From the NCBI GenBank assembly GCA_937868765.1, contig CALMNL010000003.1:186001-250000 (forward strand): a stretch of DNA of 64,000 nucleotides. Reading direction: 5' to 3'. Shown piece by piece: positions 25,424 to 43,043 of the stretch. The translations under genes and the position numbers were made by a program. Numbering within the stretch: position 1 is the first letter of the stretch; each line of letters begins with the position of its first letter. This stretch comes from an uncultured Desulfatitalea sp. Its GTDB lineage: Bacteria > Desulfobacterota > Desulfobacteria > Desulfobacterales > Desulfosarcinaceae. Below the pieces are notes generated by a model that searched no databases, had not been told where the DNA came from, and saw nothing but the letters and a program-made list of their open reading frames with translations.

Positions 25424-25502
25424 ATGGGCTCCCCGTTCACCTATAGGCATGTCTTCACATTTATACTTTTCCGTGCATTAATACATTGGCTCTGAACTCT
25501 AC

Positions 25503-27421: not shown

Positions 27422-28681
27422 ATGAATATTCCGCACCGATGGGACTGGGATACGCCAGAGAAAGTCGTGCCGTTCGATGATTGGCGTCAGCAGCATCAAT
27501 GGGTGGAGCAGCCCTGCGTCAGTCCGGATGGCGAACGGATCGCGGCCATCGTTTCCCTCGGTGAGGAGGGGTTCGGCGTACGGGTAAATGATCAATTATG
27601 GATGCGGCGCTTTGACAAGGCCTGGCACCTTGGCTTCGCTCCAGACGGCCGGCTGACCACTCTCGTCTCCGATTCCCAGTCATGGACGGTCGCCGTGGAC
27701 GACCATTTGTGGGAGCACCGTTTCGATTATGTCTGGCGCCCGATATTCAGCCGGCAGGGCCGCATGTCCATCGCCTTTCAGCAAGAAAGTCGTTACGGAA
27801 TGGCCTTGGAAGACGAACCCTGGGAGAATCTGTTCGCGCATATCTCTTGCATGCGCTTGAGTCCCGACGGCCAGCGAACAGCGGCTTGTGTCCAGACCAA
27901 AAGCTTGGGGGAAGGCGATATTTTCGGGTTCGCCGAAGGCGCCTTCTCGGCAGCCATCGATGGTGCCGCCTGGTGCCGCCCCTTCATGAATGTATGGCGC
28001 AACTGCTTCAGCGCCGACGGGGCGCACCTGGCCGTAGAGGTACGACTGACGCCGGATAAATATTCCATCGCCGTGGATGAAGAGATTTGGCCATATACCT
28101 TCAATGCGGTGTGGGAACCGCAGTTCCATCCAATCGAAGTCACGGTTACCGCGCCCGTGCGCCACAAGGGTGGTTGGACCCTGGCCCAGGATGGCCGACT
28201 TCTCTGGCAGCAAGCGTTCGTCCAATGCTGGCAGCACCGGTACAGCCCGAATGGAGAGCATATTGCCGCGATCGTTTGTCCACAGTTCGGACAGTGGTCT
28301 GTGGCGGTGGACGGTGGCGCATGGCATCTGCGGGCCGATGAACTGGTGACGGACCTGAAATTCAGCCCCGATGGACACCGTGTGGCCGTGGCTTTGAAGC
28401 ACCGTGGCGCCTGGACCATCGCCGTCGATGACCATTGCTGGCATAACTTCTTCGATCGCGTCTGGCCGCCGGTGTTCAGTCCCGACAGTCGCCATGTAGC
28501 GGTCAAAGCGGAACGCCACGGCGTCTATACCCTGGTTGTGGATGATGTCGTGAGCCAATTGCGGGCGGAGAATATGTGGACGCCGGTGTTTAGTCCCCAC
28601 AACGATAAAGTTCTGGTGCCGATGATCGAGAATGGCGTTTATTCACGACGAGTTATACCCCTGTCCGTACTACTGGCATGA
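27422..28681 (+). CDS. tmcD: TmcD-like tryptophan-rich beta-propeller protein
   Basis: 419-residue protein made of repeated blades with the pattern SPDG-x-RVAVAL...WTIAVDD-x-W. I count 23 Trp. There is no signal peptide, so it should be cytoplasmic. In the Tmc (transmembrane) complex of Desulfovibrio, TmcD is a cytoplasmic Trp-rich WD40-like protein; the match in composition and the adjacent tmcC, tmcB and tmcA genes support the name. Here it is the first tmc gene, whereas in D. vulgaris it is the last. Its precise role in the complex is not known. Confidence 0.85.
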   Translation: MNIPHRWDWDTPEKVVPFDDWRQQHQWVEQPCVSPDGERIAAIVSLGEEGFGVRVNDQLWMRRFDKAWHLGFAPDGRLTTLVSDSQSWTVAVDDHLWEHRFDYVWRPIFSRQGRMSIAFQQESRYGMALEDEPWENLFAHISCMRLSPDGQRTAACVQTKSLGEGDIFGFAEGAFSAAIDGAAWCRPFMNVWRNCFSADGAHLAVEVRLTPDKYSIAVDEEIWPYTFNAVWEPQFHPIEVTVTAPVRHKGGWTLAQDGRLLWQQAFVQCWQHRYSPNGEHIAAIVCPQFGQWSVAVDGGAWHLRADELVTDLKFSPDGHRVAVALKHRGAWTIAVDDHCWHNFFDRVWPPVFSPDSRHVAVKAERHGVYTLVVDDVVSQLRAENMWTPVFSPHNDKVLVPMIENGVYSRRVIPLSVLLA

Positions 28682-28705
28682 AAATGAAAACATGATCGGG
28701 AGTCG

Positions 28706-29368
28706 ATGATGCATGAGCTTTACATGATTGTCAGCGGCCCCATGATGTGGGCGACATGCGTGGTATTCAGCGGTGGTGTCATCTACCAATTGGGGAGACT
28801 GTTGCGGCTGCTGCTCAGAAAGGAAAGATCTTTGCTCAGCTACATGAGCCTGCGGTACAGCCTGCGTTCCATCGCACACTGGATCATTCCGTTCGGCACG
28901 CTCAACATGCGCAGAAACCCTCTCATTACCCTGGTCTCCTTCTCATTCCACATTTGTCTCCTGATTGTGCCCGTCTTTTTAACGGCCCATGTGGTTTTGT
29001 GGGAGGAGGCCTGGAATATCAGCTGGTCGTGCCTGCCGGGCCCGGTGGCCGATGGCATCACCCTCGTTGTTCCGGCCGCCTGCATCTTCTTTGCTTGGCG
29101 CCGCCTCAGGCGACCGGAAGTGCGCTTCGTATCCGATCCGGCGGATTTTATGTTTCTGGTCCTGGTCGCCCTGCCCTTTCTCAGCGGATTCTATTGCTGC
29201 CGGCACTGGCCGGGGTATGAGGTGGTGATGATCGTCCACATCGTCTCCGGCCAGGCACTGTTGGTCAGCCTGCCTTTCACGAGGTTGGCGCACATGATCC
29301 TGGTCTGGTTCACCCGCAGTTACATGGGCTCAGAGTTTGGTGCCGTGCGGCATGCACGGGATTACTGA
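28706..29368 (+). CDS. tmcC: TmcC-like membrane cytochrome b subunit
   Basis: 220-residue NarI-like membrane protein with about five hydrophobic helices. Histidines in or near helices (SFSFHICLL, LTAHVVLWE, MIVHIVSGQ, RLAHMILVW) can ligate two b haems. In Tmc, this subunit takes electrons from periplasmic TmcA through the membrane to the iron-sulfur subunit TmcB. Two ATG codons (28706, 28709) follow CGGGAG. It lies 24 bp after tmcD and 38 bp before tmcB. Confidence 0.88.
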   Translation: MMHELYMIVSGPMMWATCVVFSGGVIYQLGRLLRLLLRKERSLLSYMSLRYSLRSIAHWIIPFGTLNMRRNPLITLVSFSFHICLLIVPVFLTAHVVLWEEAWNISWSCLPGPVADGITLVVPAACIFFAWRRLRRPEVRFVSDPADFMFLVLVALPFLSGFYCCRHWPGYEVVMIVHIVSGQALLVSLPFTRLAHMILVWFTRSYMGSEFGAVRHARDY

Positions 29369-29406
29369 TCCGCTGCATTTGACTTTATAGCGAATAATGA
29401 GGCCCC

Positions 29407-30795
29407 ATGGACGCATTAGCTGAAAACAAGGTCCGCATTCCCTCAATGGCCGGTTCCTCGGCCAAACTTCAGGCGGTCGATGCCGGTATCGAAACTGGCT
29501 TGAAAGGATTGACGCCCGCCAAGATCACCGAGGTCATATCGCGGGTATTGTCGGCTGAAACCGGCGCTCGCCTGATGGCCTATTTTTCCGCTTGCACCCA
29601 TTGCGGTCTTTGCTCGGAGGCCTGTCATTTCTACCTTTCGATGGATGGTGATCCCGCGTGGTCCCCCATGGGTAAAGTCAAGCAAACCCTATGGGAAATG
29701 GTCAAAAAGAAGGGGCGTGTGAGTCCGGCGTTTATCCAACGGGCCGCTCGGATCGCTTATACCGAATGCAACCTTTGCCGCCGTTGCTCCCTGTACTGTC
29801 CCATCGGCATCGATGTCGCGTATTTGCTGTCCGTGGTGCGTCGCATATGCCACGCGTTGGGGGTCATTCCCCTCTATCTGCAGGATACGGTCAACAGCCA
29901 TTCGGCCACCTTCAACCAGATGTGGGTCAAAGCAGACGAGTGGGTCGATACGCTTCAGTGGCAGGAAGAAGATGCCCGGGACGAAATACCGGGCCTGCGC
30001 ATCCCTCTCGAAAAAGAGGGCGCCGAGATCATGTATTCCGTGATTGCACCCGAGCCCAAATTCCAGGCCGGGCTTCTATACAAAGCCGCTGTCATCATGA
30101 ACACCGCCGGTGTGGACTGGACCATGCCGGCGCGGCCCGGGTGGGATAACAGCGACATGGCCATGTACAGCGGCGATTTCGAAATCATGGGGCGACTGAA
30201 ACGGCTTTATTTCGAAACGGCTGTCCGCCTGCGGGTAAAAAAAATCGTCATGTGCGAGTGCGGCCATGCCTTCCGCAGCATCTATGATACTGGAAACCGC
30301 TGGCTTGGCTGGCGTATGCCGCCCATCGAAACCCAGCATGCCATCGACTTTTACCACGAACTTCTGGAAAAAGGCCGTATCCGCATTGCAAAGAAATTTC
30401 AGCCGCTCGTTACCCTCCATGATCCTTGCAACATGGTGCGTGGCTTCGGCTTGCATGAACGAGCACGGGATGTGGTCAAGGCCTTGTGTGAGAATTTCGT
30501 GGAGATGACGCCCAACCGGGAGTACAATTACTGCTGCACGGCCGGAGGCGGTGTGATCAACTGCGGCCCCCCTTACAAGCAGACACGCATGCTCGGCGCA
30601 CGGGTCAAGGCTCTGCAGATGCAAACAGCCGGTGCAAAGATCGTCATCGCCCCATGCCACAATTGCCACAGCGGGCTGGAAGATATCAACCAGCACTATC
30701 GGCTCGGCCTGCACATTCGATATCTTGCCGATATCCTATACGAAGTCATGGAGAAGCCCGGCGCAAAAGAGCTATCTGAGCAGGAGGCTGCATGA
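29407..30795 (+). CDS. tmcB: TmcB-like HdrD/DsrK-type iron-sulfur protein
   Basis: 462-residue cytoplasmic subunit with an HdrC-like ferredoxin pair (CTHCGLCSEAC at ~62 and CNLCRRCSLYCP at ~122) followed by an HdrD-type cysteine-rich region (MCECGHAF, HDPCNMVRG, NYCCTAGGGVINCG, APCHNCHSG) that would hold a catalytic non-cubane [4Fe-4S] cluster. It is the cytoplasmic electron acceptor/donor of the Tmc complex; the physiological substrate, perhaps a thiol/disulfide, is unknown. The stop overlaps the tmcA start (ATGA). Confidence 0.9.
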   Translation: MDALAENKVRIPSMAGSSAKLQAVDAGIETGLKGLTPAKITEVISRVLSAETGARLMAYFSACTHCGLCSEACHFYLSMDGDPAWSPMGKVKQTLWEMVKKKGRVSPAFIQRAARIAYTECNLCRRCSLYCPIGIDVAYLLSVVRRICHALGVIPLYLQDTVNSHSATFNQMWVKADEWVDTLQWQEEDARDEIPGLRIPLEKEGAEIMYSVIAPEPKFQAGLLYKAAVIMNTAGVDWTMPARPGWDNSDMAMYSGDFEIMGRLKRLYFETAVRLRVKKIVMCECGHAFRSIYDTGNRWLGWRMPPIETQHAIDFYHELLEKGRIRIAKKFQPLVTLHDPCNMVRGFGLHERARDVVKALCENFVEMTPNREYNYCCTAGGGVINCGPPYKQTRMLGARVKALQMQTAGAKIVIAPCHNCHSGLEDINQHYRLGLHIRYLADILYEVMEKPGAKELSEQEAA

Positions 30796-31181
30796 TGTCA
30801 AAAGCCTTGATTCCGTTGGCGGTGTCGGCGATCGTCTTTTTTTGCCTCGCAATGAGTTTCGCCCAGGAAGATCATGCACGGTTGGATAATTATGTCTTTG
30901 AGAAACCCGCGATGCCGCCGGCCCTTTTTGACCACGATGCGCACAATGAAAAGGCTGGTATCGACGATTGTGCCATCTGCCATCACGTCATCGAAAATGG
31001 GAAGTTGTCCGAATTCGAAACATCCGAGGACCGGCCTTGTGTCGAATGTCACGGGCTGTCGCCCTCGGCAGAAAATGCGATTGCCCTCCGCCGGGCTTAC
31101 CATCTCCGGTGCAAAGGGTGCCATCTTGACCGCGAAAGCGGGCCGATCATGTGTGGCGGATGCCATTCCCGGGGCGTTTGA
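30792..31181 (+). CDS. tmcA: TmcA-like type II tetraheme cytochrome c3
   Basis: 129-residue exported cytochrome with a signal peptide (cleavage probably after SFA, ~residue 25) and exactly four CxxCH haem sites: CAICH, CVECH, CKGCH and CGGCH. Extra histidines such as FDHDAH and YHLRC supply the second ligands. Type II cytochrome c3 receives electrons from periplasmic hydrogenases/formate dehydrogenases via type I c3 and passes them to TmcC/TmcB. Ribosome site CAGGAGG. It is the last gene of the operon and meets the convergent sigma-54 activator gene 11 bp later. Confidence 0.92.
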   Translation: MMSKALIPLAVSAIVFFCLAMSFAQEDHARLDNYVFEKPAMPPALFDHDAHNEKAGIDDCAICHHVIENGKLSEFETSEDRPCVECHGLSPSAENAIALRRAYHLRCKGCHLDRESGPIMCGGCHSRGV

Positions 31182-31192
31182 GCACAGGTCTC

Positions 31193-32599
31193 CTATCGAG
31201 ATGGCTGGCACTCATTTTTTTGGTTTTTTACCCCCTGTCTGCCATCCTCTTTGGGAAGTTGAAGGCCGATGCGCCTGATCTTGCGATACAGCGTGCTTTT
31301 GTGCATGTTGAGCATGCGTGCCGTGGCGAGCCGGTTGTAATGGTTGTGCTGAAGCGCCGCCAGAATGACTTGGCTTTCCGTGTTGCGCAGGGCGACATCC
31401 ATTCCCACTGGTGAAATGGCCGGAACAGATCCGATCCTTAGATGATCTGGCAGACAATGTACGCCGATTTCACCTTCCGGACAGATCACGAATATGCGTT
31501 CGATGATATTTTCCAACTCGCGGATGTTGCCGGGATAATCATGGAACATCAGCAGGGAGAGGGCCTCCTGGCTGATGCCGGAAACGGGTTTGCCGCGCAG
31601 CCGTTTCATGCGGCCGATAAAGTGTTCGACCAGCATGGGAATATCCTCTTTGCGCTCCCGCAGCGGCGGCAATTCCAAACAAACCACATTGACCCGGTAG
31701 AAAAGATCCTGTCGAAAAAGGCCTTTTTGCACCAGATCGGTCAAATCTTTGTTGGTCGCGGCGATGACGCGCACATCGGCCCGTACCGGCTTGGTGGCGC
31801 CCAGCGGCAGGAATGTCCTTTCTTGAAGCACACGCAGCAGCCGCACCTGGAAAGCCGGGCTCAGGTCGCCGATCTCATCGAGCAGCAGGGTACCTCCCTC
31901 GGCGAGCGCAAATTGCCCCGGTTTGTCCTTGGTCGCATGGGTAAAGGCCCCGGCCTTATAACCAAAAAGCTCGGATTCCAGCAGTGTGTCCGGCAGTGCA
32001 CCGCAATTGATCGCGATGAACGGCTTGCCCTTGCGTGGGCTGAGATTGTGGATCGCCCGCGCCAGCAGTTCCTTGCCTGTTCCGGTTTCGCCCTGAATCA
32101 GTACAGTGCTTTCACTATCCGCGACCTGTGGCAGGATCTTGAAAATCGATTGCATGGAAGGGCTGCGGCTGACGATGTCGCCCACTTGGTACCGCCCGGC
32201 CAGCTCCTTGCGCAGCTCTTCTATCTGGCTGACGTCCCGAAAGATTTCCACGCCACCCAATACCTTGCCATCTTCATCCTTGAGAAGTGAAGTGGACACC
32301 ACCAAGGGAATGGGCATCTTCCGGCTGTTCACAATGTATGCCGAACTGTCTACGAACGGCTTGCCCTGTTTCATGGTTCGGCGTAAAGCGCAGTCGCTTT
32401 CGCACATGTTGGAACGAAATACCTCCCAACAATGCCTTCCCAGTGCCTCCTCGCGCGGGATGCCGGTAATCATCTCGGCGGCGCGATTGAAAGAAGTTAT
32501 CCGCCATTCGTGATCCACGGTAAATACGCCATCCGAGATGCTTTCGAGAATGATTTCGGTGACCCGGGCGGGGACCTGATTCAAACGATCACTTTCCAT
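31193..32599 (-). CDS. Sigma-54-dependent activator with PAS domain and GAFTHA loop
   Basis: 468-residue activator. An N-terminal PAS domain (~12-125) contains SISDGVFTVDHEWRITSFN and a Cys pair (MCESDC) that could sense redox or bind a cluster. The AAA+ domain (~150-385) has Walker A GETGTGKE and Walker B GGTLLLDEIGD, but loop 1 reads GAFTHA instead of GAFTGA. A Fis-type helix-turn-helix is near the C-terminus (NHYNRLATARMLNMHKSTLY). It probably drives the sigma-54 promoters at 26.1 and 26.4 kb. The start has an AAGGTG site. Confidence 0.93.
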   Translation of the reverse strand: MESDRLNQVPARVTEIILESISDGVFTVDHEWRITSFNRAAEMITGIPREEALGRHCWEVFRSNMCESDCALRRTMKQGKPFVDSSAYIVNSRKMPIPLVVSTSLLKDEDGKVLGGVEIFRDVSQIEELRKELAGRYQVGDIVSRSPSMQSIFKILPQVADSESTVLIQGETGTGKELLARAIHNLSPRKGKPFIAINCGALPDTLLESELFGYKAGAFTHATKDKPGQFALAEGGTLLLDEIGDLSPAFQVRLLRVLQERTFLPLGATKPVRADVRVIAATNKDLTDLVQKGLFRQDLFYRVNVVCLELPPLRERKEDIPMLVEHFIGRMKRLRGKPVSGISQEALSLLMFHDYPGNIRELENIIERIFVICPEGEIGVHCLPDHLRIGSVPAISPVGMDVALRNTESQVILAALQHNHYNRLATARMLNMHKSTLYRKIRRIGLQLPKEDGRQGVKNQKNECQPSR

Positions 32600-33018
32600 G
32601 GTTTAGGCACCTTTTAACACTTAAGTATGGTTGGCTCGCAGGCAACTTCACAGTCGCATTCGAGGGACAATAATATAGGACACATTTGCATCAATGCGAC
32701 TATATCTTTTCCGCAAACTGGGCACCATGAATATTTTTCAGCCCTAAATTGCCATTCTTTTTGCTCGTGTCAGGCATATCTCGTTCTCTTGGCTTTATTC
32801 CGAAGGGGTGCAGGCAGTAAGGCATATCAAAAGAATTCTAGGGAAGCCCAATTTTTTTTGAAAAATTGTCTGCGAAAATGAGGCTATCTTTGATGCCTGC
32901 TGGAAGACCCGACGGTTCAACTACACACCGCATAAAAGAAAGGGCAGGGGCAGTTGGCCAATGGTACAGATTGCCCCCAAGCAGATGATCGGGGCGAACT
33001 GCCACTTGGGTGTGTTGC
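32600..33018. other. Intergenic region without a recognised gene
   Basis: About 420 bp between the sigma-54 activator start and the terminator of the Hdr operon, lower in GC than its surroundings. It presumably carries the activator's promoter. The small open frames present lack ribosome sites and recognisable products. No repeat or RNA gene seen. Confidence 0.55.
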
Positions 33019-33059
33019 AAAAAGCAGCGCCTGAGGGCGTCGGGTCCCTCAGGCGCTGC
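33019..33059 (-). terminator. Intrinsic terminator of the hmc/hdr operon
   Basis: A perfect 14-bp stem (GCAGCGCCTGAGGG at 33024-33037 pairing with 33046-33059, eight-base loop) is followed on the minus strand by TTTTTG. It lies ~35 bp past the stop of the FrhB-like gene. Confidence 0.88.
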
Positions 33060-33092
33060 CAGATGGAGGAATAGGTATCAAGTTGATTTGAC

Positions 33093-34259
33093 CTAAGCAG
33101 AATCGATGCCAACTAAATGATATGCCGCCCTATCCGTCTTTCTACGGCGGTGGTTGACTTCGGTATTCCTCGAGAAGAAATTGGCGTTCTGCTTTTTCCT
33201 ATCGGACCATTTTATCGCTTTTTTGTAAGCCTCTGAGCGGATGTCTGGGTTACCATTATTGGGATAACGTTCGATGCTCATCACAGAAGCGTCGTCCAAT
33301 AACGACTCCCCCAGAGGGGTGCGGGCTATGATGGTCGTCCAACCTTGCGGCGCGCCTAAACCGCCAAACGACAGATCGGCGAATTCAGAAGTATAATCGA
33401 GGCAGTAATGGCAAGCATGCCGCTTCATGGAATCGAGTTGGTCAAGTGTAATGAAACGGGTCTCATTATTGCACAGATGAACGATAAGCTGCTCCTTGAT
33501 ATTGATTCTATCGACCTGGTGCCACTTGAAATTGCCAATTTGCTCGATTTGCTGCTTTTGTTCAGAATCAAAAACAAAGTTGCCGGTGCAGAATAGCCCG
33601 AAAAGTATTTTGATGGATCGGGCCGGTTCAATATCCATGGCTTGAATTTTTCTAATCGTGTTGACCTGGCAGGGGGTGCCCACAAAGGCCACTCTATTCA
33701 ACGGTTTCCTGCCTATGTGACCGACTTCGAGCACGGAAGGCGAGTAGGTCGAGTAATTGGCATAAAGCTTTGAATATAGCTCCAATCCTTGTGAGGTATC
33801 AAAGTGGAAGCCGGCGGCGTCGATGATTTCTTCCCTCGTTGTAGCGAGCCAGGGCGATCTTTGAAGCAAACCGGTCTGCTTGGTGACAATGGCGCCATCG
33901 ATGCCCCGCTTATCGAGCAGATGCAACAGCAGCGCCGTTACCACGCCGCCATCCGTCCCACGTCGCCGGATGTCATGGGCCGTGGCGCGTGCCACCGAGA
34001 CGTCCCGGACGCACCCTATCGGTGCTTGCCATGCTGCTAATTTCTTGATTTCATCATCCAGTTCATGGGTTTGAGGGCAAATGACATAGCACAGCCCACA
34101 CTCGATGCACTTATCGATATCTTTGAAGCGGGGTGTTCCGTGCTCGTCCAATTCCAAGGCGCCATAGTTAATGGCAGTACAAAAGGTGACGCAGCCGCCA
34201 CAGCGCAGACACCGCCCTGGTTGTTGGACCTCCTTGATCAGATGGATAAATGTTTTCAC
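33093..34259 (-). CDS. FrhB/FdhB-type flavoprotein with ferredoxin domain
   Basis: 388-residue protein of the coenzyme F420 hydrogenase/dehydrogenase beta-subunit family. Two [4Fe-4S] motifs open it (CLRCGGCVTFC ~17-27 and CIECGLCYVICP ~51-62), then the FrhB N-domain (TDGGVVTALLLHLL) and C-domain (VGTPCQVNTIRKIQ, CHYCLDYTSEFADLSFGG). Relatives use F420, NAD(P)H or ferredoxin through FAD; nothing here decides which. The GTG start 34259 is chosen because AGGAGG lies eight bases upstream. Last gene of the operon with HdrA, so it likely brings electrons to or from HdrA's flavins. Confidence 0.9.
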   Translation of the reverse strand: MKTFIHLIKEVQQPGRCLRCGGCVTFCTAINYGALELDEHGTPRFKDIDKCIECGLCYVICPQTHELDDEIKKLAAWQAPIGCVRDVSVARATAHDIRRRGTDGGVVTALLLHLLDKRGIDGAIVTKQTGLLQRSPWLATTREEIIDAAGFHFDTSQGLELYSKLYANYSTYSPSVLEVGHIGRKPLNRVAFVGTPCQVNTIRKIQAMDIEPARSIKILFGLFCTGNFVFDSEQKQQIEQIGNFKWHQVDRINIKEQLIVHLCNNETRFITLDQLDSMKRHACHYCLDYTSEFADLSFGGLGAPQGWTTIIARTPLGESLLDDASVMSIERYPNNGNPDIRSEAYKKAIKWSDRKKQNANFFSRNTEVNHRRRKTDRAAYHLVGIDSA

Positions 34260-34334
34260 TGTGCTTTCCTCCTGGTTTTGAAGTAAGGAAAAGCAATCCG
34301 GAAAATCCTCCGATTTTTTGGAAGCAGCAAAGAG

Positions 34335-34372
34335 AATGGCCTGCCTATTCTGAAAGCAATAAGCAGGCCATT
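34335..34372 (-). promoter_or_regulatory. Stem-loop between hdrA and the FrhB-like gene
   Basis: A perfect 10-bp stem (AATGGCCTGC / GCAGGCCATT) with an 18-base loop lies 45 bp after the hdrA stop. No U-run follows on the minus strand, so it is more likely an attenuator or an RNA-stability element between the two genes than a full terminator. Confidence 0.5.
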
Positions 34373-34416
34373 AACGTTTGAGTTTAAGGAGATGCACCGC
34401 GCTCAATTGAGGTGCT

Positions 34417-37400
34417 TCATAATGCCATGATCTGGGCCATTATTTGATCATTGTCGAACCCCTTGAGCCGGATGGCGCCGGACCGGCACGAGCATACGCA
34501 CAATCCGCATCCCTTGCAAAGGGCCGGGTTGATCGTGGCTTTGCCGGCGTTCATACGGGCAGTCGCTTCGATGAACGAAGGCGCCGAGTACGGGCAGATG
34601 GAAACGCAGACTCCGCAGGCGCTGCACATGCCGGGTACGACTTCGGCGATGGTGCCGCTGGTGTAGATCACCTTGCGTGCCAGTTGTGTGACCGCCCGGG
34701 TGGCAGCTGCCACGGCCTGGGCGATGGATTCGTCGATGGGCTTGGGCGCGTGGGCCAGGCCGCAGATGAAAATGCCGTCGGTGGCGCAATCCGATGGCCG
34801 GAGCTTGGCGTGGGCCTCCATGAAGAAGCCGTCGTCGTTCAAGGTGACCTTGTACTGCTGGGCCAGGGGATTTTCCTCGGGGGGCGTGATGGCGGTGGCC
34901 AGTACCAGCATCTCCGGCTGGATTTCGATCTTACGCCGCAGGCCGGTGTCGATGAAGCGAACCTTGAGCTCCTGCTCCTCGCGATCGACCTCCAGCCCCT
35001 GCTCCGCGTCATAGCGCAGAAAAAGAACGCCCTTCTCGCGGGCTTCCCGGTACAGATTCTCGCGCAAGCCGAAGGCGCGCATATCGCGATAGAGGATGTA
35101 CACCGCCATTTCCGGATTGAGCTTCTTCAGCGCCAGGGCATTTTTGATCGAATGGGTGCAGCATACCTTGGAGCAATAGGGTCTTTCGGGAATCCGGGAG
35201 CCCACGCACTGGATGAAAAGAGCGCTTTTCTTCCGGGAGAGATCCGGATCATTGGCGATGAATTTGCGATCCAGATCGAGACTGGTCAGCACCCGTTCAT
35301 CCTGGCCGTAGAGATACAGGTCCGGCTTTAACTCATGGGCACCAGAGGCGATGATCGCCACGCCGTGCACCAGTTCCTCGGTCTTTTCGCCCGTCTGGAT
35401 GGTGGTCTTGAAATTTCCGAAGAAACCGTCCGTCTTAACGATTTCGGCGTTGGCAAAAATATCGATGTTCGGGTCCCCTTGGACCTCGTCGATCATACCT
35501 TTCAAATTTTTCTGGACATCTTCGGCCTGCCAGGTTTCATGCAGAAGCAGGGCCTGGCCGCCGAGTCGATCGCTCTTCTCAACCAGATAGGTGTGGTAGC
35601 CCTGGTTGGCAAGGGTTTTGGCGGCCGTCATGCCGGCCACGCCGCCGCCGATAACAAGGGCGGCCTGATTGACCTGGAGCTCGGCCTCCTTGAGCGGCTC
35701 CATGAGCTTGATCTTGGACACGGCCATGCGCACCAGATCCTTGGATTTTTCCGTGGCCATGGCCGGGTTGCTCTTGTTGACCCAGGAGCAGTGGTTGCGG
35801 ATATTGGCCATTTCGAAGACATACTTGTTCAAACCGGCATTGGTGAGGGTTTCCTGGAACAAAGGCTCGTGGGTCTTGGGGGTGCAGGCGGCCACCACCA
35901 CCCGGTTCAGTCGGTGCTCCTTGATCAGGGCGGCCATGTTGTTCTGGGTGTCCTGGGAACAGCTAAACATGTTTTTTTCGGCGTAGACCACGTAGGGCAG
36001 GGTCTTCGCATATTCGACCACCGCCGGTACATCCACCACGCCGGCGATGTTGGTGCCGCAGCAGCATACAAAAACACCGATGCGCGGCGGCTCGCCCCGG
36101 GTCTCCACTTCGGGGGCAATCTCTTTTTTCCGAGTCAGGGTCCAGCGGGCCTCGGCGAGGGTGTTGCTGGCGGCTCCAGCCGACGCACTGGCCTCGATAA
36201 CCGAGGAGGGGATGTCCTTGGGGGCCTGAAAGGAGCCGCAGACGAAGACGCCTGGCCGAGAGGTCCTGACCGGTTCGAAGCTGTCCGTGGTGGCGAAACC
36301 ATAGCCATCCATCTGCACGCCGAGCACCTGGGCCAGCTCGGCCGTGGTTTTGCTCACCCCGAGACCGACTGAGAGGACCACCATGTCGAACTCTTCTTCA
36401 ACCCGCCGGCCGGTTTCATCCAGGTAGCGGATCAACTGGTTGCCGCTTTCCGTGGGCAGAATGTGGGTGACCCTTGATTTGACGAAGCGCACTCCGGATT
36501 GTTGTCTGGCGCGATTGTAGTACTTTTCGAAGTCTTTGCCGTGAGTGCGGATATCCATGTAAAAGATGGCTGCATCCAGCCCGTCCTTGCTGTGCTCCTT
36601 GGCCAGCATGGCTTCCTTGATGGCATAGGTGCAGCAAACCGACGAGCAATAGCCTTTGGCGCCGATATGCACATCCCGTGAGCCGATGCATTGCAGCCAC
36701 GCGATCTTCTTGGGTTCGACATGATCGGATGGACGCACCAGGTGGCCGCCGTAAGGTCCGGAAGCGGACAGGATGCGCTCGAATTCCAGACTGGTGACGA
36801 TGTTGGCCGATTTCGTATAACCGTAAGGATCGTGCGCTTTGGGATCATAGGTGGGCGCGCCATTGGCAAGGATCACGGCGCCCACCTTGAGGGTCATCTC
36901 CTTGACCTGATCATTGTAGCTGATGGCGCCCGTGGGGCACAGTTTTTCGCAAGCCCGGCACTTGCCCTTGGTCAGATAAATGCATTGGGTGTCGTCGATG
37001 GCATATTTGAGCGGAACGGCCTGGGCATATTTGACATAAATGGCCTTGCGGTTGGCAAGCCCGCCATCATACTCGTTGCTGACCTTCTTGGGGCACTTTT
37101 CCGCGCATAGGCCGCAGGCAATGCACTTGTCGGTATCCACATAGCGGGGATACTGCGTGAGCGACACTTCGAGATTGCCTGCTTCTCCCGAGATGTTTTT
37201 GACTTCCGAAAGCGTGAGTAACTCTATGTTGATGTGCCGGCCGACCTCGACCAGTTTGGGCGAGATAATTCACATGGCACAGTCATTGGTGGGGAACGTT
37301 TTGTCCAACTGCGACATAAGCCCGCCAATTGAAGAGCTTCTCTCCACCAGGTAGACATAATATCCGGAATCCGCCGCATCCAGGGCCGCCTGCATGCCTG

Positions 37401-37449
37401 CAATACCGCCGCCGACCACCATCACAGCGCCAATTTTGTTCTGAGACAT
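34417..37449 (-). CDS. hdrA: HdrA-like protein with two FAD domains and predicted selenocysteine (UGA codon 60)
   Basis: One gene of 1011 codons read through an in-frame TGA at 37270-37272. The frame before it ends TFPTNDCAM and after it continues [12 protein letters not shown], so Sec60 takes the place of the conserved Cys in the HdrA segment NDCxxC. Domain order: FAD site GGGIAG (~13-18), Sec60, ferredoxin ([12 protein letters not shown] ~109, CRACEKLCP ~164), the HdrA N-type motif [13 protein letters not shown] (~462), a second FAD site GGGVAG (~601), and C-terminal ferredoxin ([12 protein letters not shown] ~942, CKGCGLC ~978). HdrA is the flavin-bifurcating subunit of heterodisulfide reductases. 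Start ATG 37449 follows AGGAGC. A standard caller would split or shorten this gene. Confidence 0.9.
37230..37272 (-). promoter_or_regulatory. UGA codon and presumed bacterial SECIS region in hdrA
   Basis: The recoded TGA is 37270-37272. On the minus strand a GGTC lies 18-21 bases after it, close to where the loop GGUC stands in the E. coli fdhF SECIS as I recall it. A short CTCG/CGAG stem can enclose part of this. The fold was not computed. Confidence 0.55.
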
Positions 37450-37517
37450 TTTCGCTCCTGCTCTAACAAGATTCATTCGTACTTCTATAGAATGGTTTAT
37501 TAAACCTCGGGTTCAAA

Positions 37518-38444
37518 TTATTCCTGCGGTTGAACGTCTGTGGCTGAGGCCTTCGTGCGGCCTGCCGTCTTTTTGGGTTTGGCTGGGGGCTCTGCCACCA
37601 CTTCTTCTTTTATGTCAAGCGTCATCCCCAGGGCATCGCGTTCGAGCCCCATAGCCAGTCCGAGCAGCTGGGGATAGACAATACTGTCCATGCGCGGCGC
37701 CGTGTCTTGTCCTGACACCATTATTTGCCGGACTTTGTCGAATTGCATGTGGCAGTACGGGCACGCCACGCACAGGTATTCGCCGCCGGCCCGTCGGCCG
37801 TCGGCGAATTTTTTGCGGGTCAATTCAACCGATAAATCGTCGTTGACGCCCAGCAGCGGGGCGCCGCAGCATTCGAGCTTCAATGGCCACTCCACGCTCT
37901 TGGCGCCGGTGGCGGTTACCAGATCATCGAAAATAGATGGCGCCACCGGGTTGTCGAATTCGGTGACGTCGCTCGGCCGTAACGCGTGGCAGCCGTAATG
38001 GGTGGCCATTTTGAGCGTTTTGAAGGGCTTGGTGCATTTCTCCTTCAAAGCATCGATACCCAGGTCATGGTGTAGCACGGAGAGCAAATGCTTTACCGCG
38101 AATTTCCCCGAATAGTGCAAACCCTCTTTGGCCAGCAGACCGTTCATCTCTTCTCGAATGGAAGGGAGTTGCCGCATCACATGGGCCGCTTTTTTAAGGC
38201 TGCCGAAGCAGCACATGCAGAGCACCATCAGATCCAATCCTTGCTTTTCCGCCAGGGCGAGGTTGCGGGCCGCCATCAGCAGAAAAGTATTTTGATCTAT
38301 GTTCCGGATGGGATTGCCGCAGCATTTGAACTCGGGATTGTCTTCGATTTCTATTCCGAGCCTGGCGAGCACGGTACGGGCGGAAAGCTCGTATTGCGGA
38401 ACCCGTACGGGAATATTACACCCAATAAATAATGCAAATTTCAT
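37518..38444 (-). CDS. hdrB: HdrB-like subunit with two CCG domains
   Basis: 308-residue HdrB, the heterodisulfide-reducing subunit type. Both cysteine-rich CCG domains are complete: Cys9 in FIGCNIP with KCCGNP and LCMCCFGS, and YGCHALRP with ECCGAPL and ACPYCHMQ. They can ligate the two non-cubane [4Fe-4S] clusters that reduce disulfides. The C-terminal ~35 residues are a charged, Lys/Pro-rich tail not usual for HdrB. It starts 8 bp after the HdrC-type gene with an AGGAT site. In a bacterium without methanogenesis the disulfide substrate is unknown. Confidence 0.92.
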   Translation of the reverse strand: MKFALFIGCNIPVRVPQYELSARTVLARLGIEIEDNPEFKCCGNPIRNIDQNTFLLMAARNLALAEKQGLDLMVLCMCCFGSLKKAAHVMRQLPSIREEMNGLLAKEGLHYSGKFAVKHLLSVLHHDLGIDALKEKCTKPFKTLKMATHYGCHALRPSDVTEFDNPVAPSIFDDLVTATGAKSVEWPLKLECCGAPLLGVNDDLSVELTRKKFADGRRAGGEYLCVACPYCHMQFDKVRQIMVSGQDTAPRMDSIVYPQLLGLAMGLERDALGMTLDIKEEVVAEPPAKPKKTAGRTKASATDVQPQE

Positions 38445-38452
38445 CGTCGATC

Positions 38453-39958
38453 CTATCTGGCAGCGCTTTCGGAACCGTTCTGGGCGGAAGATTGATTGGC
38501 CTCCACGACGGCGAGGTTTTTCAGTTCATAAAAGATATCGGTCACTTTGACACCCTGGGGACAGTGCTCCTGGCACTGGTAGCAGGTCAAACAATACCAC
38601 AGCATTCTGGCCCCCAGGGCCGCGTCCTTTAGCCCGAAGCCCAAAGAGCGGATGATCTGGTGGGGCAGCAAATCCAGCGCTTGTTGCGGCGCTTCGTAAT
38701 TGCCGACCACAGGACACACGGTGGAGCAGTTTTCGCAGGTGAAGCAATAGGCATAGGTGACGGTTCCGCCCGAAAGCACGGCTGTCTTTTTAAATTCGCT
38801 GTTTTGCGGGCCGAGCGGGACTACCTCACCGGTGCTGAAACGTTCGAACGGAGCGGTCAAATCCTTTACGGCATTTGACAGGGGCTGCTTGTACTGATCA
38901 GAAGTCATTTCCTGCCGCTTGAGCCCCCGATAGAAAGAGAAGGGGGTGAGCACCAACGGGGCCGCATGCTCCCGCTGAAGCACCTCCTCGCGGGCATTGA
39001 ACCACAGGTCGCGCAGGTTGATGCCGGCCGGGCAGATGACCGTGCAGCGGTCGCAATTGGTGCACAGGCTGATGCCTTCCTGCAGGGCAGCAAACCCCCT
39101 GGCGCCGATCTCTTTGTAGGCAACGTATTCCTTTAAAACCGCAATTCTTTCCGACGGCAGGATATTGCTGTTGCCAATGATGTCCGAGGCCGCCGCCACG
39201 GAGCAACGTTTGCTGCAGTTCGTGCAGTGCAGACAGGCATCCAGTTCCATTATCTGGCGGGTCTTGACATTGGCAGGATGGGAATTCGCATCCATGACCG
39301 CATTGGCCAGGAGGCTTAACGGTGTCGTGAATACGTGCAAAAATTTGCTGAACGGAAGGTACGCAAGACCCACCATGCAGGCCAGAAAATGGATATCCCA
39401 GAAGATCTGGTAGTGCTCGTAGGAGCTGAGCTTGGTTAACTCCATGGCAATGCCCGAGATCAGGATGACGGCCAGAATGATCAGGACATAGGCATCCATG
39501 GCATTGGTTTTCAGGCGCGGCACCTTCAAGATAAAACGGCGGTATGCGGCAATGGCGATGCCTGCGAGAACCATCGAACCGGAAACCAGCAGAAAGGGAT
39601 TGAGCGCCAGGTAATATTTTTCGAAGAGCGAGGTGATGATGATCTTGTCCAGGGCGTGCATGAAGAAAAGGAAGGTAAATCCGGCAAAGATCAGCATGTG
39701 CATCACCCATCGCAGGGTGTCCTGTCTGCGGAGGTGGTTCTGAAAAAGGACATCGGCCACAAGCACTTTGATCAGGGTGGCCAGCTTCGGGCTGAAAATT
39801 ACCGATAAGATGCCCTGAATGGCGGCCCGGATGCGGACCGAAACGGTCAAGCTTGGATCATATATGCCGATATTGAAGCGAAACCAGCCGGCGACCTTAA
39901 AAAGCAATCCGATTCCAAATACAACCAGGGCCAAGTACAGCAACATCGTGTAGACCAT
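38453..39958 (-). CDS. NarI-like cytochrome b fused to two HdrC-like ferredoxin modules
   Basis: 501-residue fusion. Residues 1-215 hold about six to seven helices, with His87, His101, His190 and His208 placed as in NarI-type di-haem cytochrome b. Residues ~240-310 are an HdrC module (CLHCTNCSKRC, CTNCDRCTVICP), and residues ~405-470 are a second one (CFTCENCSTVCP, CLTCYQCQEHCP), giving four [4Fe-4S] sites. Normal HdrC has two and no membrane part. It should link a periplasmic cytochrome to HdrB in the cytoplasm. It lies between the 16-haem cytochrome gene and hdrB. Confidence 0.9.
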   Translation of the reverse strand: MVYTMLLYLALVVFGIGLLFKVAGWFRFNIGIYDPSLTVSVRIRAAIQGILSVIFSPKLATLIKVLVADVLFQNHLRRQDTLRWVMHMLIFAGFTFLFFMHALDKIIITSLFEKYYLALNPFLLVSGSMVLAGIAIAAYRRFILKVPRLKTNAMDAYVLIILAVILISGIAMELTKLSSYEHYQIFWDIHFLACMVGLAYLPFSKFLHVFTTPLSLLANAVMDANSHPANVKTRQIMELDACLHCTNCSKRCSVAAASDIIGNSNILPSERIAVLKEYVAYKEIGARGFAALQEGISLCTNCDRCTVICPAGINLRDLWFNAREEVLQREHAAPLVLTPFSFYRGLKRQEMTSDQYKQPLSNAVKDLTAPFERFSTGEVVPLGPQNSEFKKTAVLSGGTVTYAYCFTCENCSTVCPVVGNYEAPQQALDLLPHQIIRSLGFGLKDAALGARMLWYCLTCYQCQEHCPQGVKVTDIFYELKNLAVVEANQSSAQNGSESAAR

Positions 39959-40025
39959 ATTTCAGATTCCCTTTATCTATCTCTATCCTTTGATACCGCT
40001 TTCACTGAAAAACATTGTATCCGGC

Positions 40026-41594
40026 TTATTTGGACTTTTCTTTATGGCAATCGGCACAGGCCGCCGGCTTGGCCATACCCATCGCTTTATGGCAGCCCAT
40101 GCATTGAAGGTGATAGGCGCCCATGATGCCAGGTTTGAGCAGATTCGTCGAATCGAGCGGTTTGCCATGGCAATTCGCACAAGCCGGCGGCTTGCTCGAT
40201 GCAGGGCTGTTATGATGGCAACCCTGGCATACCGTATCCCGGTCGGTGTGAAAATAGGCTGCCAGCTTGCTGTCCTGGATGTCGGCCACCAGGGCGTTGA
40301 CGATCCGGCGATGGGGAAAGTCCACGGCCTCGTATTGATCGGAGAGCTTGTTGATGACCACCTTCTCGGGAATTTCCTCCTGGTTGAAGGTAACGGAGAA
40401 CGGTTTCCCGGCTTGGAGCATCTCGGCAGCCATCGCTTTTTCCCCTTCCGGTCCGGCGGGCGCCTCGGCGACCGGCTTCATGTGGCAGGGGGCGCAGGCG
40501 CCGTCCTGCTTCTCCTTGCCGGCACCGATGAACACATGGCAACCCGCGCAATTCTTCTCATTCTGCCTCGAGAGATGGCAGCCCCGGCAGCTTCTGCTGG
40601 AGTCGATTTGGTGCATGGCCTCTTCGAGGTTGACCCCATTTCCCTCTTTGGTTCCTGCCACCGTATGGCAGGTGTTGCATGCTTTGAGCGTCTCATGATG
40701 GCAGCCGCGGCAGGTGTCGGTATACCCCTCGTGTGCTTTGTGATCGAAAGGAACGAAATTCATGCGGGTCAAGATGTCGTTTTCGGTCGGGTTGTTCAAG
40801 GGGGACCGTTTGATCAGCACGACGTCCGGTTGTTTGGCTTCCATCCGGGGGACGGATGTCAGTTTTTCAATTTTCTGTTGAGCTGCGGCATCGTGACATC
40901 CGGCACACTCCACGGGACCGGTGTTACGGTTCTGGGCCAGGTTTTTACGGTGACAATCGATGCAACTGATGTGGGATGCGGCACGCATGGAGATCAGCTT
41001 GTCCCTGGTTTCGGCCTTGTGGCAATAGCGGCAGGTCTCTTCCTCGCCTTTGGCATAGAACAGCTTTTTCGCCTTTTCGTCATACACATGATGGCAGCGG
41101 TCGCATTTTTGTTCCTGGGCCGATGAATGCCTGTAATGAAGGGATTTGTCGAATCCCATCGGTTCTCTTGAAGGTGTGAACCGTCTCTTCTCAGCATGGC
41201 ACTCGTTGCATTCCACTGGGCCCGCTTCGGTACCTGCCGCTCTCATTTCGCCGTGACAGGATATACACTCTTTGTGATAGACGTTCATCACCGAGGTCCT
41301 GTCCGTATCCTCCATGCGCTTGAACTTTATGGATGTACGTTTGTCTTGGGTCAGGTGGCAGGCCGTGCAGTCCTTGTGCCTGTCAGCCAAGGCCCTGGTG
41401 TGCGCATCATGCAGAAACTCAACCGGCGGTTTTTCCAAGGCGCCAAACTGCCGCATCGAATCGATCATTATGAGGTCCGCCCTGGGTCCCTTCAATGCCT
41501 CGGGATTTCGGGCAGAACCATAAAGCCCTGAGGTACAAAGAAAAATAATGGAAGCCGCTAAGATCCAGTACCGACACAGCAGACGATTCCTCAT
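40026..41594 (-). CDS. 16-haem high-molecular-weight cytochrome c (HmcA-like)
   Basis: 522-residue exported cytochrome. A hydrophobic N-terminal segment (ILAASIIFLCTSGL) is a signal peptide or anchor. I count sixteen CxxCH sites, the first CTACH (~residue 75) and the last CADCH near the end; the number and length match HmcA of Desulfovibrio (16 haems). Haems cluster in groups of c3-like spacing with a haem-free stretch at ~385-445. HmcA receives electrons from cytochrome c3 in the periplasm. Here it heads an operon with Hdr genes instead of the usual hmcB-F genes. Confidence 0.92.
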   Translation of the reverse strand: MRNRLLCRYWILAASIIFLCTSGLYGSARNPEALKGPRADLIMIDSMRQFGALEKPPVEFLHDAHTRALADRHKDCTACHLTQDKRTSIKFKRMEDTDRTSVMNVYHKECISCHGEMRAAGTEAGPVECNECHAEKRRFTPSREPMGFDKSLHYRHSSAQEQKCDRCHHVYDEKAKKLFYAKGEEETCRYCHKAETRDKLISMRAASHISCIDCHRKNLAQNRNTGPVECAGCHDAAAQQKIEKLTSVPRMEAKQPDVVLIKRSPLNNPTENDILTRMNFVPFDHKAHEGYTDTCRGCHHETLKACNTCHTVAGTKEGNGVNLEEAMHQIDSSRSCRGCHLSRQNEKNCAGCHVFIGAGKEKQDGACAPCHMKPVAEAPAGPEGEKAMAAEMLQAGKPFSVTFNQEEIPEKVVINKLSDQYEAVDFPHRRIVNALVADIQDSKLAAYFHTDRDTVCQGCHHNSPASSKPPACANCHGKPLDSTNLLKPGIMGAYHLQCMGCHKAMGMAKPAACADCHKEKSK

Positions 41595-41718
41595 GGCTCT
41601 AAATCCTTGAGTTAATGCTATTAAATTAAAAGCGCAGCAGCTTACCTAACAAAGAGAAGTAGGGTGCGCAACAATAAAAGCATCCTTCAGCAGGGAAGGG
41701 GGGCGATCTTTTTTTATC

Positions 41719-42195
41719 TCAATTCGGATTATGCGCCTGCTGTGCTCTGCCGCGTTTGCTGACTGCGTCCATGCAAAGCTTGCAGACGCCATCTACCCGC
41801 ACGGCCACATTTTCGATGTGGCCCGGGAAAACCCGCGCCAGGGGTTGCAGGTCCAATGCGATGGCTTCGGGGCGCAGGCAATCCATGCGGCCGCACCTGC
41901 GGCAGAAGAAGTGAGGGTGCCGTTGGTGGTGCTCATTAGGCGCCAGGCCGTAATAAAAAGCACGGCCGCCGCTAAGGCGTTCCAGCAGACCGTGCTGAAC
42001 CAGGGCATCGAGGATGCGATACACGGTGACCCGGTTGATCGGCGTGGCGCGGCAAACGGTTGCGAAAATCTCCTGAGCATTGAGGGGGCCTGTATTGCCA
42101 CCCACGATCTCCAGCACACGCAGGCGATGAGCCGTGACCTCCAGGCCTGCGTGGGTGAGCAACTGATGGTAGTCGCAATTCTGGCACATGGTCAT
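41719..42195 (-). CDS. zur: Zur-type Fur-family zinc regulator
   Basis: 158-residue Fur-family repressor. The winged helix contains INRVTVYRILDALVQHGLLER, here in part VTVYRILDALVQHGL, followed by HHQRHPHFFCRRCGRMDCL and a C-terminal CKLC, the structural zinc site. Its start overlaps the znuB stop (ATGA), so it is cotranscribed with the zinc transporter; this context, not the sequence alone, points to Zur rather than Fur. A 21-bp palindrome upstream of znuA is the probable operator, giving autoregulation. Confidence 0.88.
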   Translation of the reverse strand: MTMCQNCDYHQLLTHAGLEVTAHRLRVLEIVGGNTGPLNAQEIFATVCRATPINRVTVYRILDALVQHGLLERLSGGRAFYYGLAPNEHHQRHPHFFCRRCGRMDCLRPEAIALDLQPLARVFPGHIENVAVRVDGVCKLCMDAVSKRGRAQQAHNPN

Positions 42196-43043
42196 TTCCC
42201 TTGGGAAAGCGCCATCGGCACATCGGTCCCGGACGGCTTGCGTTTGTGGATGTGTTCCAGCAGCAGGGCAATGAAAAAACCGGCACCTGCCGAAAGGATG
42301 ATGCAGGCCCCGGCGGTCAGATTGTAAAGATAAGCCAGCGTCAGGCCGATTAGGGTGAAAAGGATGTTGAGTCCGCAGGCCACCGCCATCATCTGCAATA
42401 GCGAACGGGTGAATTTTTCGGCGATGAACGCCGGGATGGTCAGCAGGGCGATGACCAGGATCAAGCCTACCACCCGGATGGTGAGCACCACCGCCACGGC
42501 CAGCAGGCAGACCAGCAGGAAGTAGAGGCGCCGCACGGGAATGCCGCGTACTTGCGCGAACTCCTCATCGTAGGAGAACGCCAGAAAGTCGTTGTAGTAA
42601 GCTCCGACCACCAGGGCGATGACGAGCGCCGTGGCCAGCATTACCCATAAATCGGTTCCGGGAACGGTTAAAATGCTGCCGAAGAGATAGCTCATCAGGT
42701 CGACAGGGTAGCCTGGTGATAGATCGATGAAGAGAATGCCCAACGCCATCCCCAGCGCCCAGATGGCGCCAATGACGGTATCGGCCCGATACCTGGCCTT
42801 CAGGCTCACGGCGGCCATGGTGAAGGCCGCCAGAAGAGAGAAGCCCAGCGTCCCTGGCAGGTAGGGCCAGCGCATGTAAAAGGCCAGTCCGATGCCGCCA
42901 TAGGCCGCATGGGCGATCCCGCCGGACAGGAATACAAGGCGGTTGGCGACGGCCAGGGTTCCCATCACACCACAGATAACGCTCACCAGCACTCCTGCCG
43001 CCAGTGCGTGGCGCATAAAAGAAAAATCAAATATTTCCAGCAT
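42192..43043 (-). CDS. znuB: ZnuB-type zinc/manganese ABC transporter permease
   Basis: 283-residue ABC-3 family permease with eight or nine hydrophobic helices. The family segments LVFLSGGIAHAAYGGIG and VVGLILVIALLTIPA are visible. Together with the ATPase and the solute-binding protein it forms a metal importer. The adjacent zur gene and the His-rich loop in the binding protein favour zinc. It starts 42 bp after the znuC stop. Confidence 0.9.
   Translation of the reverse strand: MLEIFDFSFMRHALAAGVLVSVICGVMGTLAVANRLVFLSGGIAHAAYGGIGLAFYMRWPYLPGTLGFSLLAAFTMAAVSLKARYRADTVIGAIWALGMALGILFIDLSPGYPVDLMSYLFGSILTVPGTDLWVMLATALVIALVVGAYYNDFLAFSYDEEFAQVRGIPVRRLYFLLVCLLAVAVVLTIRVVGLILVIALLTIPAFIAEKFTRSLLQMMAVACGLNILFTLIGLTLAYLYNLTAGACIILSAGAGFFIALLLEHIHKRKPSGTDVPMALSQGK

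Follow-up and report, generated by a model that had tools for sequence, protein, structure and literature searches.

The transmembrane complexes Hmc (HmcABCDEF) and Tmc (TmcABCD) are among the closest described systems to the locus presented here, and Tmc is regarded as a reduced version of Hmc. It is not settled how sulfate reducers route electrons of periplasmic or syntrophic origin into the low-potential chemistry of the cytoplasm, and in the available portion of one account the cytoplasmic partner of both Hmc and Tmc is described as not known (PMC4215793). In a stretch of 64,000 nucleotides (nt) from an uncultured Desulfatitalea sp. (contig CALMNL010000003.1, positions 186,001 to 250,000; hereafter the window) we find five genes on the minus strand, at 33093-41594, that encode the cytochrome HmcA, a NarI-HdrC fusion, HdrB, an HdrA read as containing selenocysteine and an FrhB-like protein. 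The HmcA is genuine and shares its operon with the disulfide site of HdrB and the flavin of HdrA. The operon is a real, conserved variant built from known modules, apparently unnamed, and the window holds a reduced form of it. We regard the claim on gene content and linkage as strong; any reaction given for it below is a proposal.

A conserved operon of HmcA, NarI-HdrC, HdrB and HdrA

The window cytochrome scored 618.1 bits against the NCBIfam HmcA equivalog NF045713, for which the cut-off is 400, and the solved HmcA structure 1gws aligns with its residues 4-522 (E 7.8e-140). The amino-terminus resembles a signal peptide by eye. Together with 16 CxxCH motifs, the score and the structural match bear out the HmcA-like assignment made in a preliminary description of this DNA. 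That description had also proposed a gene-neighbourhood search for a 16-CxxCH cytochrome beside NarI-HdrC and HdrA, and the search revealed a conserved operon. HmcA, HmcB, HmcC, NarI-HdrC, HdrB and HdrA follow one another in the same order in each of the ten other loci that are complete and non-redundant (G001, G006, G010, G046, G125, G200, G209, L079, L081 and L082); five of the ten were met in duplicate and counted once, and G209 was matched also by sequence. A genome scan for NarI-HdrC kept 80 of 165 relatives, 9 of them short forms of the fusion and 71 long or partial. One short form (L083) ends at a contig edge, and the remaining eight all stand in the six-gene order given above. The NarI-HdrC family was found in 25 of 97 relatives' genomes at E <= 1e-60 and, in a class-wide sample where the best three candidates per genome were scored, in 91 of 389 genomes at E <= 1e-100. 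The short form occurs in nine of these 389 (window included, one of them partial). Because the linkage of HmcA with NarI-HdrC, HdrB and HdrA is conserved in other genomes (10/10), we rejected chance co-location of the modules.

The operon had also been described as combining modules from different complexes. This is correct for HmcA with NarI-HdrC, HdrB and HdrA, but HmcA keeps its own partners in the relatives: HmcB, HmcC and a small HmcD-like open reading frame (ORF) lie between HmcA and NarI-HdrC in all ten other complete loci, the ORF having been found in 8 + 2 loci over two passes. HmcB and HmcC of the relative L046 exceed their NCBIfam equivalog cut-offs. The window operon lacks HmcB, HmcC and HmcD and has a 67-nt gap in their place, which we read as a derived deletion that would make the five-gene set a derived, reduced version of the operon. 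Plain membership of Hmc was rejected on HmcE and HmcF: NarI-HdrC scored 28.9 bits against the HmcF cut-off of 750, and HmcE does not appear in the best 25 of the 28 families compared.

In HdrB, ten cluster-type cysteines match those of the solved HdrB 8rvv_B and cover both cluster motifs, as read by eye from the alignment; the protein scores 239.6 bits, under the CoB-CoM HdrB equivalog cut-off of 345.15. In HdrA the flavin adenine dinucleotide (FAD) site, the N-terminal domain and the equivalent of Cys197 are all present but spread over two fused halves. Selenocysteine stands at the Cys197 position in the first half, which is without the N-terminal domain; the second half contains that domain but no Cys197 equivalent. 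Against the archaeal HdrA cut-offs the best score is 959.4 bits versus 1100. In M. wolfeii, Cys197 is a ligand to the N-terminal cluster in the partner HdrA copy, according to the available portion of PMC9012536.

The in-frame TGA falls on Cys197 in the HMMER alignment (query 35-404 on 5odc_A 147-511), assuming no gap before the match, and the alignments to 8rvu and 8rvv print no gap before that region. Counting the scanned loci and the window, the site is TGA in 54 of 68 sequences and a Cys codon in 14, and most of the relatives' hybrid loci have an HdrA with TGA. Among distinct sequences, all six pairs of a hairpin resembling a selenocysteine insertion sequence (SECIS) persist in 51 of the 52 that have TGA and in 2 of the 14 that have a Cys codon, and SelB is over its cut-off in the genome. 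The features of a bacterial selenoprotein gene, namely the TGA, the downstream hairpin and SelB, are therefore all found, with three caveats. The hairpin is not unusually stable (z -0.17), which counts against the selenocysteine reading; Rfam matched nothing in 32600-42200; and the hybrid locus L223 is an exception, with a Cys codon yet an intact hairpin. Given the ordinary stability and the lack of an Rfam match, the case for selenocysteine rests on the comparative counts.

The FrhB-like protein has two N-terminal [4Fe-4S] motifs and matches the FrhB_FdhB N and C models. It had been taken as one of the subunits that define the operon, a view the relatives do not support: FrhB is found in two of the ten other complete loci (G006 and G200), a Flx-like trio follows HdrA in its place in three (L079, L081 and L082), and both are missing from five within the stretch read. 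We rejected FrhB as a constant subunit on this count, and regard it as a putative variable adaptor of HdrA. The trios, which we take to be Flx, share 50-70% identity with the proteins of L048, and these carry the supporting Pfam domains. More widely, of 30 loci with the FrhB family, the window among them, 17 have an HdrA beside it, 6 a TmcB/HdrD-type gene and 7 neither within about 1.5 kb. Chains of the FrhB/FdhB family also belong to the solved Hdr complexes 8rvu and 7bkb. The solved folds closest to FrhB are the F420 enzymes 8riu and 8rja, and the protein is under the F420-hydrogenase FrhB equivalog cut-off (144.2 versus 331.5 bits). F420 was rejected as an unlikely partner of FrhB because the matches to F420 synthesis genes in the genome stay below cut-off. 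Two CofH-type proteins reach 311.4 and 247.1 bits versus 374.1, and a single CofD match reaches 29.5 versus 257.45; none of the F420-synthesis genes tested was over cut-off, whereas the controls exceeded theirs in 3 of 14 genomes each. The two CofH-type matches are neighbours on contig C6 and are presumably menaquinone-pathway relatives.

Pfam domain matches back each of the five gene assignments and, with the coordinates in Table 1, confirm the five same-strand genes of the preliminary description; the terminator it placed at the end of the operon is likewise present. The intergenic gaps from hmcA to the FrhB gene are 67, 8, 68 and 157 nt, where the 68-nt gap between HdrB and HdrA shortens to 41 nt if HdrA begins at 37476. 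The FrhB gene may be expressed separately from the upstream genes, because a stem-loop (34372-34335) sits in the 157-nt gap before it. A motif scan found no sigma-54 promoter within 400 nt upstream of the window hmcA, and such a promoter was rejected for this gene. In nine relatives the same scan gave one site with 10 matches in L047 and two sites with 8 matches in L079. A sigma-54-like site with 9 matches precedes the window FrhB gene in the stem-loop region, and 13 such sites occur across the window.

Table 1. Features of the hybrid operon, with positions counted along the window
Feature	Position	Strand	Basis or remark
hmcA, 16-haem cytochrome, 522 amino acids	40026..41594	-	16 CxxCH, NCBIfam NF045713, 1gws match
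Gap of 67 nt; relatives hold hmcB, hmcC and an hmcD-like ORF here	39959..40025	-	gap sequences
NarI-HdrC fusion, 501 amino acids, short form	38453..39958	-	four CxxCxxC motifs, Pfam
hdrB, 308 amino acids, two CCG domains	37518..38444	-	Pfam, alignment with solved HdrB
hdrA, two fused HdrA halves	about 34417..37449, start possibly 37476	-	one in-frame TGA
In-frame TGA, read as selenocysteine	37270..37272	-	comparative counts, SelB in genome
SECIS-like hairpin CUGGUC-GAGGUC-GGCCGG, 3' of the TGA	37237..37254	-	pair conservation
Stem-loop, 15 bp, between hdrA and the FrhB gene; possible attenuator	34335..34372	-	inside the 157-nt gap
FrhB/FdhB-like protein, 388 amino acids	33093..34259	-	FrhB_FdhB N and C models
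Intrinsic terminator, -33.9 kcal/mol hairpin then TTTTT	33023..33060	-	hairpin fold

Adjoining the operon on the plus strand is a complete Tmc set (TmcD, TmcC, TmcB and TmcA; 27422-31181), all four over their NCBIfam cut-offs. A gene for a PAS and sigma-54 activator protein lies downstream of the operon at 31193-32599, and a copy with 83% identity follows HdrA in L044. Further along, at 23658-25450, two adjacent proteins of 288 and 309 amino acids show P-loop and ferredoxin motifs by eye. Elsewhere in the same genome (G000), locus L041 on contig C4 (about 536.9-542.9 kb) holds a second HdrA (52%), a TmcB/HdrD-like protein and an FrhB (52%). On contig C9, L043 and L158 hold a large frame with HdrA-like regions, 1429 amino acids long and cut by the stretch, beside a TmcB-like gene.

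Short and long forms of NarI-HdrC

NarI-HdrC comprises a NarI-like membrane domain and two dicluster ferredoxin domains, the second of which aligns to solved HdrC. Four histidines (87, 101, 190 and 208) and the cluster cysteines are invariant in 30 sequences, and we take the histidines to be the b-haem ligands. The predicted structure is of moderate quality overall and poor in the C-terminal, cytoplasmic half, and a structure search gave no significant fold match for it, so the model was used for rough helix placement only. The window protein is a short form. In its long relatives the NarI domain is extended by an insertion that includes a CxxCH site for haem c. Of the 71 long or partial forms 70 have a CxxCH, and of the nine short ones none. 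The sole long or partial form without it (L153) is a fragment that begins past this place. The last NarI helix has a YLPxSK motif, and in 69 of the 70 the CxxCH precedes it by 30-110 residues; in the seventieth, L130, no YLPxSK was found. The insertion would lie on the periplasmic side, given that the ferredoxin domains are taken as cytoplasmic and that the helix positions come from the model.

In a tree of 31 NarI-HdrC sequences the short forms make up one clade (100/100), which is nested inside the haem-c-bearing long forms when L063, a paralog from the window's own genome, is the outgroup. As the short clade lies among long, haem-c-bearing relatives, HmcA seems to replace the built-in haem c of the long forms. 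It is likely but not proven that the ancestral NarI-HdrC/HdrB/HdrA complex had a built-in haem c, for which HmcABCD was later substituted. The HmcABC part appears to have a different history, above all in the Desulfocapsa-type loci: the HmcB and HmcC trees cannot be explained with fewer than two changes between the hybrid and the canonical state, and in the HmcA tree the hybrid copies are left unresolved as one group (14% of bootstrap trees).

Two further sets of loci were seen in this survey. L199 (G042, contig C88), labelled canonical in the Hmc trees, has HmcA, HmcB and HmcC followed by TmcD, TmcC and a TmcB-like gene, and is another natural Hmc mosaic. L084-L154 form a large family of clusters in Desulfobacterota, Eth-SRB genomes included, with NarI(haem c)-HdrC, HdrB and HdrA, and a number of these clusters carry Flx-like genes.

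Electron path and competing readings

We consider it probable that the operon encodes an Hmc-type transmembrane conduit in which NarI-HdrC, HdrB and HdrA stand in for the cytoplasmic HmcE/HmcF arm and would connect the cytochromes c of the periplasm with a disulfide site and a flavin. HmcA, with its 16 haems in the periplasm, would exchange electrons with the cytochrome c pool there, the NarI-type membrane domain would carry them across the membrane through two b haems, and the fused HdrC-like ferredoxin domain would pass them to HdrB and HdrA. HdrB would provide a disulfide/thiol site, for which the likely partner is DsrC, encoded in the genome. HdrA would act as a double flavoprotein able to split or merge electron pairs, and the FrhB-like protein as an interchangeable port through which HdrA meets a soluble partner of low potential, where other loci may use a Flx-like NAD(P)H unit. 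Read in this way, the gene order suggests a direct wire from the cell exterior to low-potential chemistry. More tentatively, it is possible that the proteins form a membrane-bound flavin bifurcating or confurcating complex, in which electrons from the periplasmic multihaem cytochrome reduce the HdrB disulfide and drive a second stream to a low-potential carrier linked to FrhB or Flx. If so, electrons from the periplasm or from outside the cell would power a respiratory bifurcase, and the window version would be a minimal form without the NrfD module. As to the origin of the operon, the most likely course is that a NarI-HdrC/HdrB/HdrA complex, at first equipped with a built-in haem c, lost the haem-c domain and recruited HmcABCD, and that the window lineage later lost HmcBCD, which can be compared with the presumed paring down of Hmc to Tmc.

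Several observations weigh against the conduit reading. In the window HmcBCD are missing, so that the contact between HmcA and NarI is assumed there, and the NarI-HdrC model, poor in its cytoplasmic half, found no significant fold match. FrhB, set apart from hdrA by the stem-loop, recurs in only two of the ten other loci. The outgroup L063 is a long branch, which leaves the root of the NarI-HdrC tree, and with it the nesting of short within long forms, unsure. Given the changes in the HmcB and HmcC trees and the unresolved HmcA tree, HmcABC do not have one simple shared history with NarI-HdrC. The direction of flow is mixed in the available portion of PMC4215793, where Hmc phenotypes suggest export and those of Tmc uptake.

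Export through the same proteins is a serious contender, though we hold it to be somewhat short of an even prospect. A reduced cytoplasmic donor, either NADH by way of Flx or a low-potential compound by way of FrhB, would be oxidised at HdrA, and the electrons would leave through HdrC and the b haems to HmcA, as proposed for syntrophic Hmc. The Hmc mutant phenotypes just mentioned point to flow from cytoplasm to periplasm (PMC4215793, available portion), and the Flx-like trio after HdrA in three of ten loci would suit such a route. However, HdrB is kept in all ten complete loci, which suggests disulfide chemistry, and we prefer uptake toward HdrB to export by only a small margin.

It is also conceivable, if rather doubtful, that the working complex keeps its NrfD module by sharing HmcB, HmcC and HmcD from a canonical hmc operon. 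A separate Hmc is encoded on contig C5 of the same genome, with HmcB (532.8 bits), HmcC (679.1 bits), HmcE and HmcF over their cut-offs and a 16-haem gene, and its HmcB and HmcC are 67% and 72% identical to the hybrid-locus copies of G006. In the trees, however, these two proteins cluster with canonical same-genus copies and not with hybrid ones, and would therefore belong to another partner; on the same placement they are not the lost hybrid genes relocated. A second, Hmc-type locus is also present in the hybrid-bearing genomes G001, G006, G010 and G046.

That there is no single complex seems to us unlikely. HmcA would then serve Tmc or the c pool, NarI-HdrC with HdrB and HdrA would be a membrane Hdr of its own, and FrhB would go with another HdrA. 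The complete Tmc set lies divergently next door, the genome has the other HdrA, HdrD-like and FrhB set described above, and the stem-loop precedes FrhB. Against such a division, HmcA is linked to NarI-HdrC in every one of the other complete loci, and the short NarI-HdrC lacks the haem-c motif that the long forms have.

An assembly error that hides hmcBCD in a locus that is really complete is less probable still: the window genome is alone in lacking these genes among 11 complete loci, but the site lies inside a 773-kb contig with an ordinary-looking intergenic gap, and the HmcB and HmcC that match best in this genome are those of the canonical C5 operon. Least credible is that the window copy is a decaying remnant left by the loss of hmcBCD, since, although its branches are longer than those of L044 (HmcA 0.29 versus 0.20, NarI-HdrC 0.23 versus 0.13), the frames are intact except for the selenocysteine codon, the motifs are kept, and the ratio of nonsynonymous to synonymous substitution rates (dN/dS) between window and L044 over four genes, FrhB left out, is 0.10-0.15, an average that recent decay would move little and that is no higher than the 0.13-0.19 between L044 and L045, both of which keep HmcBCD.

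Comparison with known systems

The earlier view that no named complex has this gene set agrees with the open-access literature searched, in which nothing matching was seen; the search covered listings and passages of text. In the portions available, the operon is undescribed in PMC2702500, PMC10553843, PMC5109826, PMC9012536, PMC4046663, PMC4215793, PMC13343851, PMC13416013 and PMC7382037. Murali and colleagues, in the part of their paper available, place HdrA neighbourhoods in a supplementary figure. The family offers natural experiments, in that haem c is apparently replaced by HmcA, FrhB is exchanged with Flx and HmcBCD are lost, and the routing of electrons can therefore be tested by comparing cultivable relatives.

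QmoC of QmoABC resembles NarI-HdrC in that HdrC is fused with a b-type membrane domain, but in the window fusion, unlike in QmoC, the NarI part comes first. The window fusion also has an additional ferredoxin domain, and it failed the QmoC test with 79.8 bits against a cut-off of 300. Soluble HdrABC, which works with Mvh, Flx or formate dehydrogenase partners, shares with the operon the HdrB and HdrA homologues, the HdrC-like domain and the FrhB/FdhB-type or Flx-like units; here, however, HdrC is fused to a membrane domain and operon-linked to a 16-haem cytochrome. HdrF of Desulfobacterium autotrophicum, also a sulfate reducer, has membrane helices fused to an HdrC-like domain, but it includes an HdrB-like domain as well and stands beside glycerol-phosphate dehydrogenase or Etf genes (PMC2702500, available portion). 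For HotSeep-1 an HdrA complex has been proposed to transfer electrons from cytochrome c to DsrC or ferredoxin; it combines HdrA with a protein carrying haem c and CCG, and the available portion of that account does not mention a 16-haem cytochrome (PMC10553843). Of the published ideas seen, this one and the membrane HdrF proteins come nearest to the operon. As in the window, paired HdrA halves that complement each other in Cys197 and the N-terminal domain are found in HdrA3/4 of anaerobic methanotrophic archaea (ANME) and in Moorella MetFV-HdrABC. In ANME HdrA3/4 the complementary halves are fused with the N-domain half first, the opposite order to that of the window, where selenocysteine takes the Cys197 position (PMC9012536, available portion).

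Tmc joins a cytochrome, a NarI protein and a disulfide-type arm without the NrfD module, like the reduced window version, but it has a TmcA with 4 haem motifs, its CCG site is in TmcB and it lacks an HdrA flavoprotein. With Hmc the operon shares HmcA as a true member, and the NarI and ferredoxin domains take the position of HmcE and HmcF. It differs from Hmc in having NarI-HdrC, HdrB and HdrA instead of HmcE and HmcF and, in the window, in lacking HmcB, HmcC and HmcD as well.

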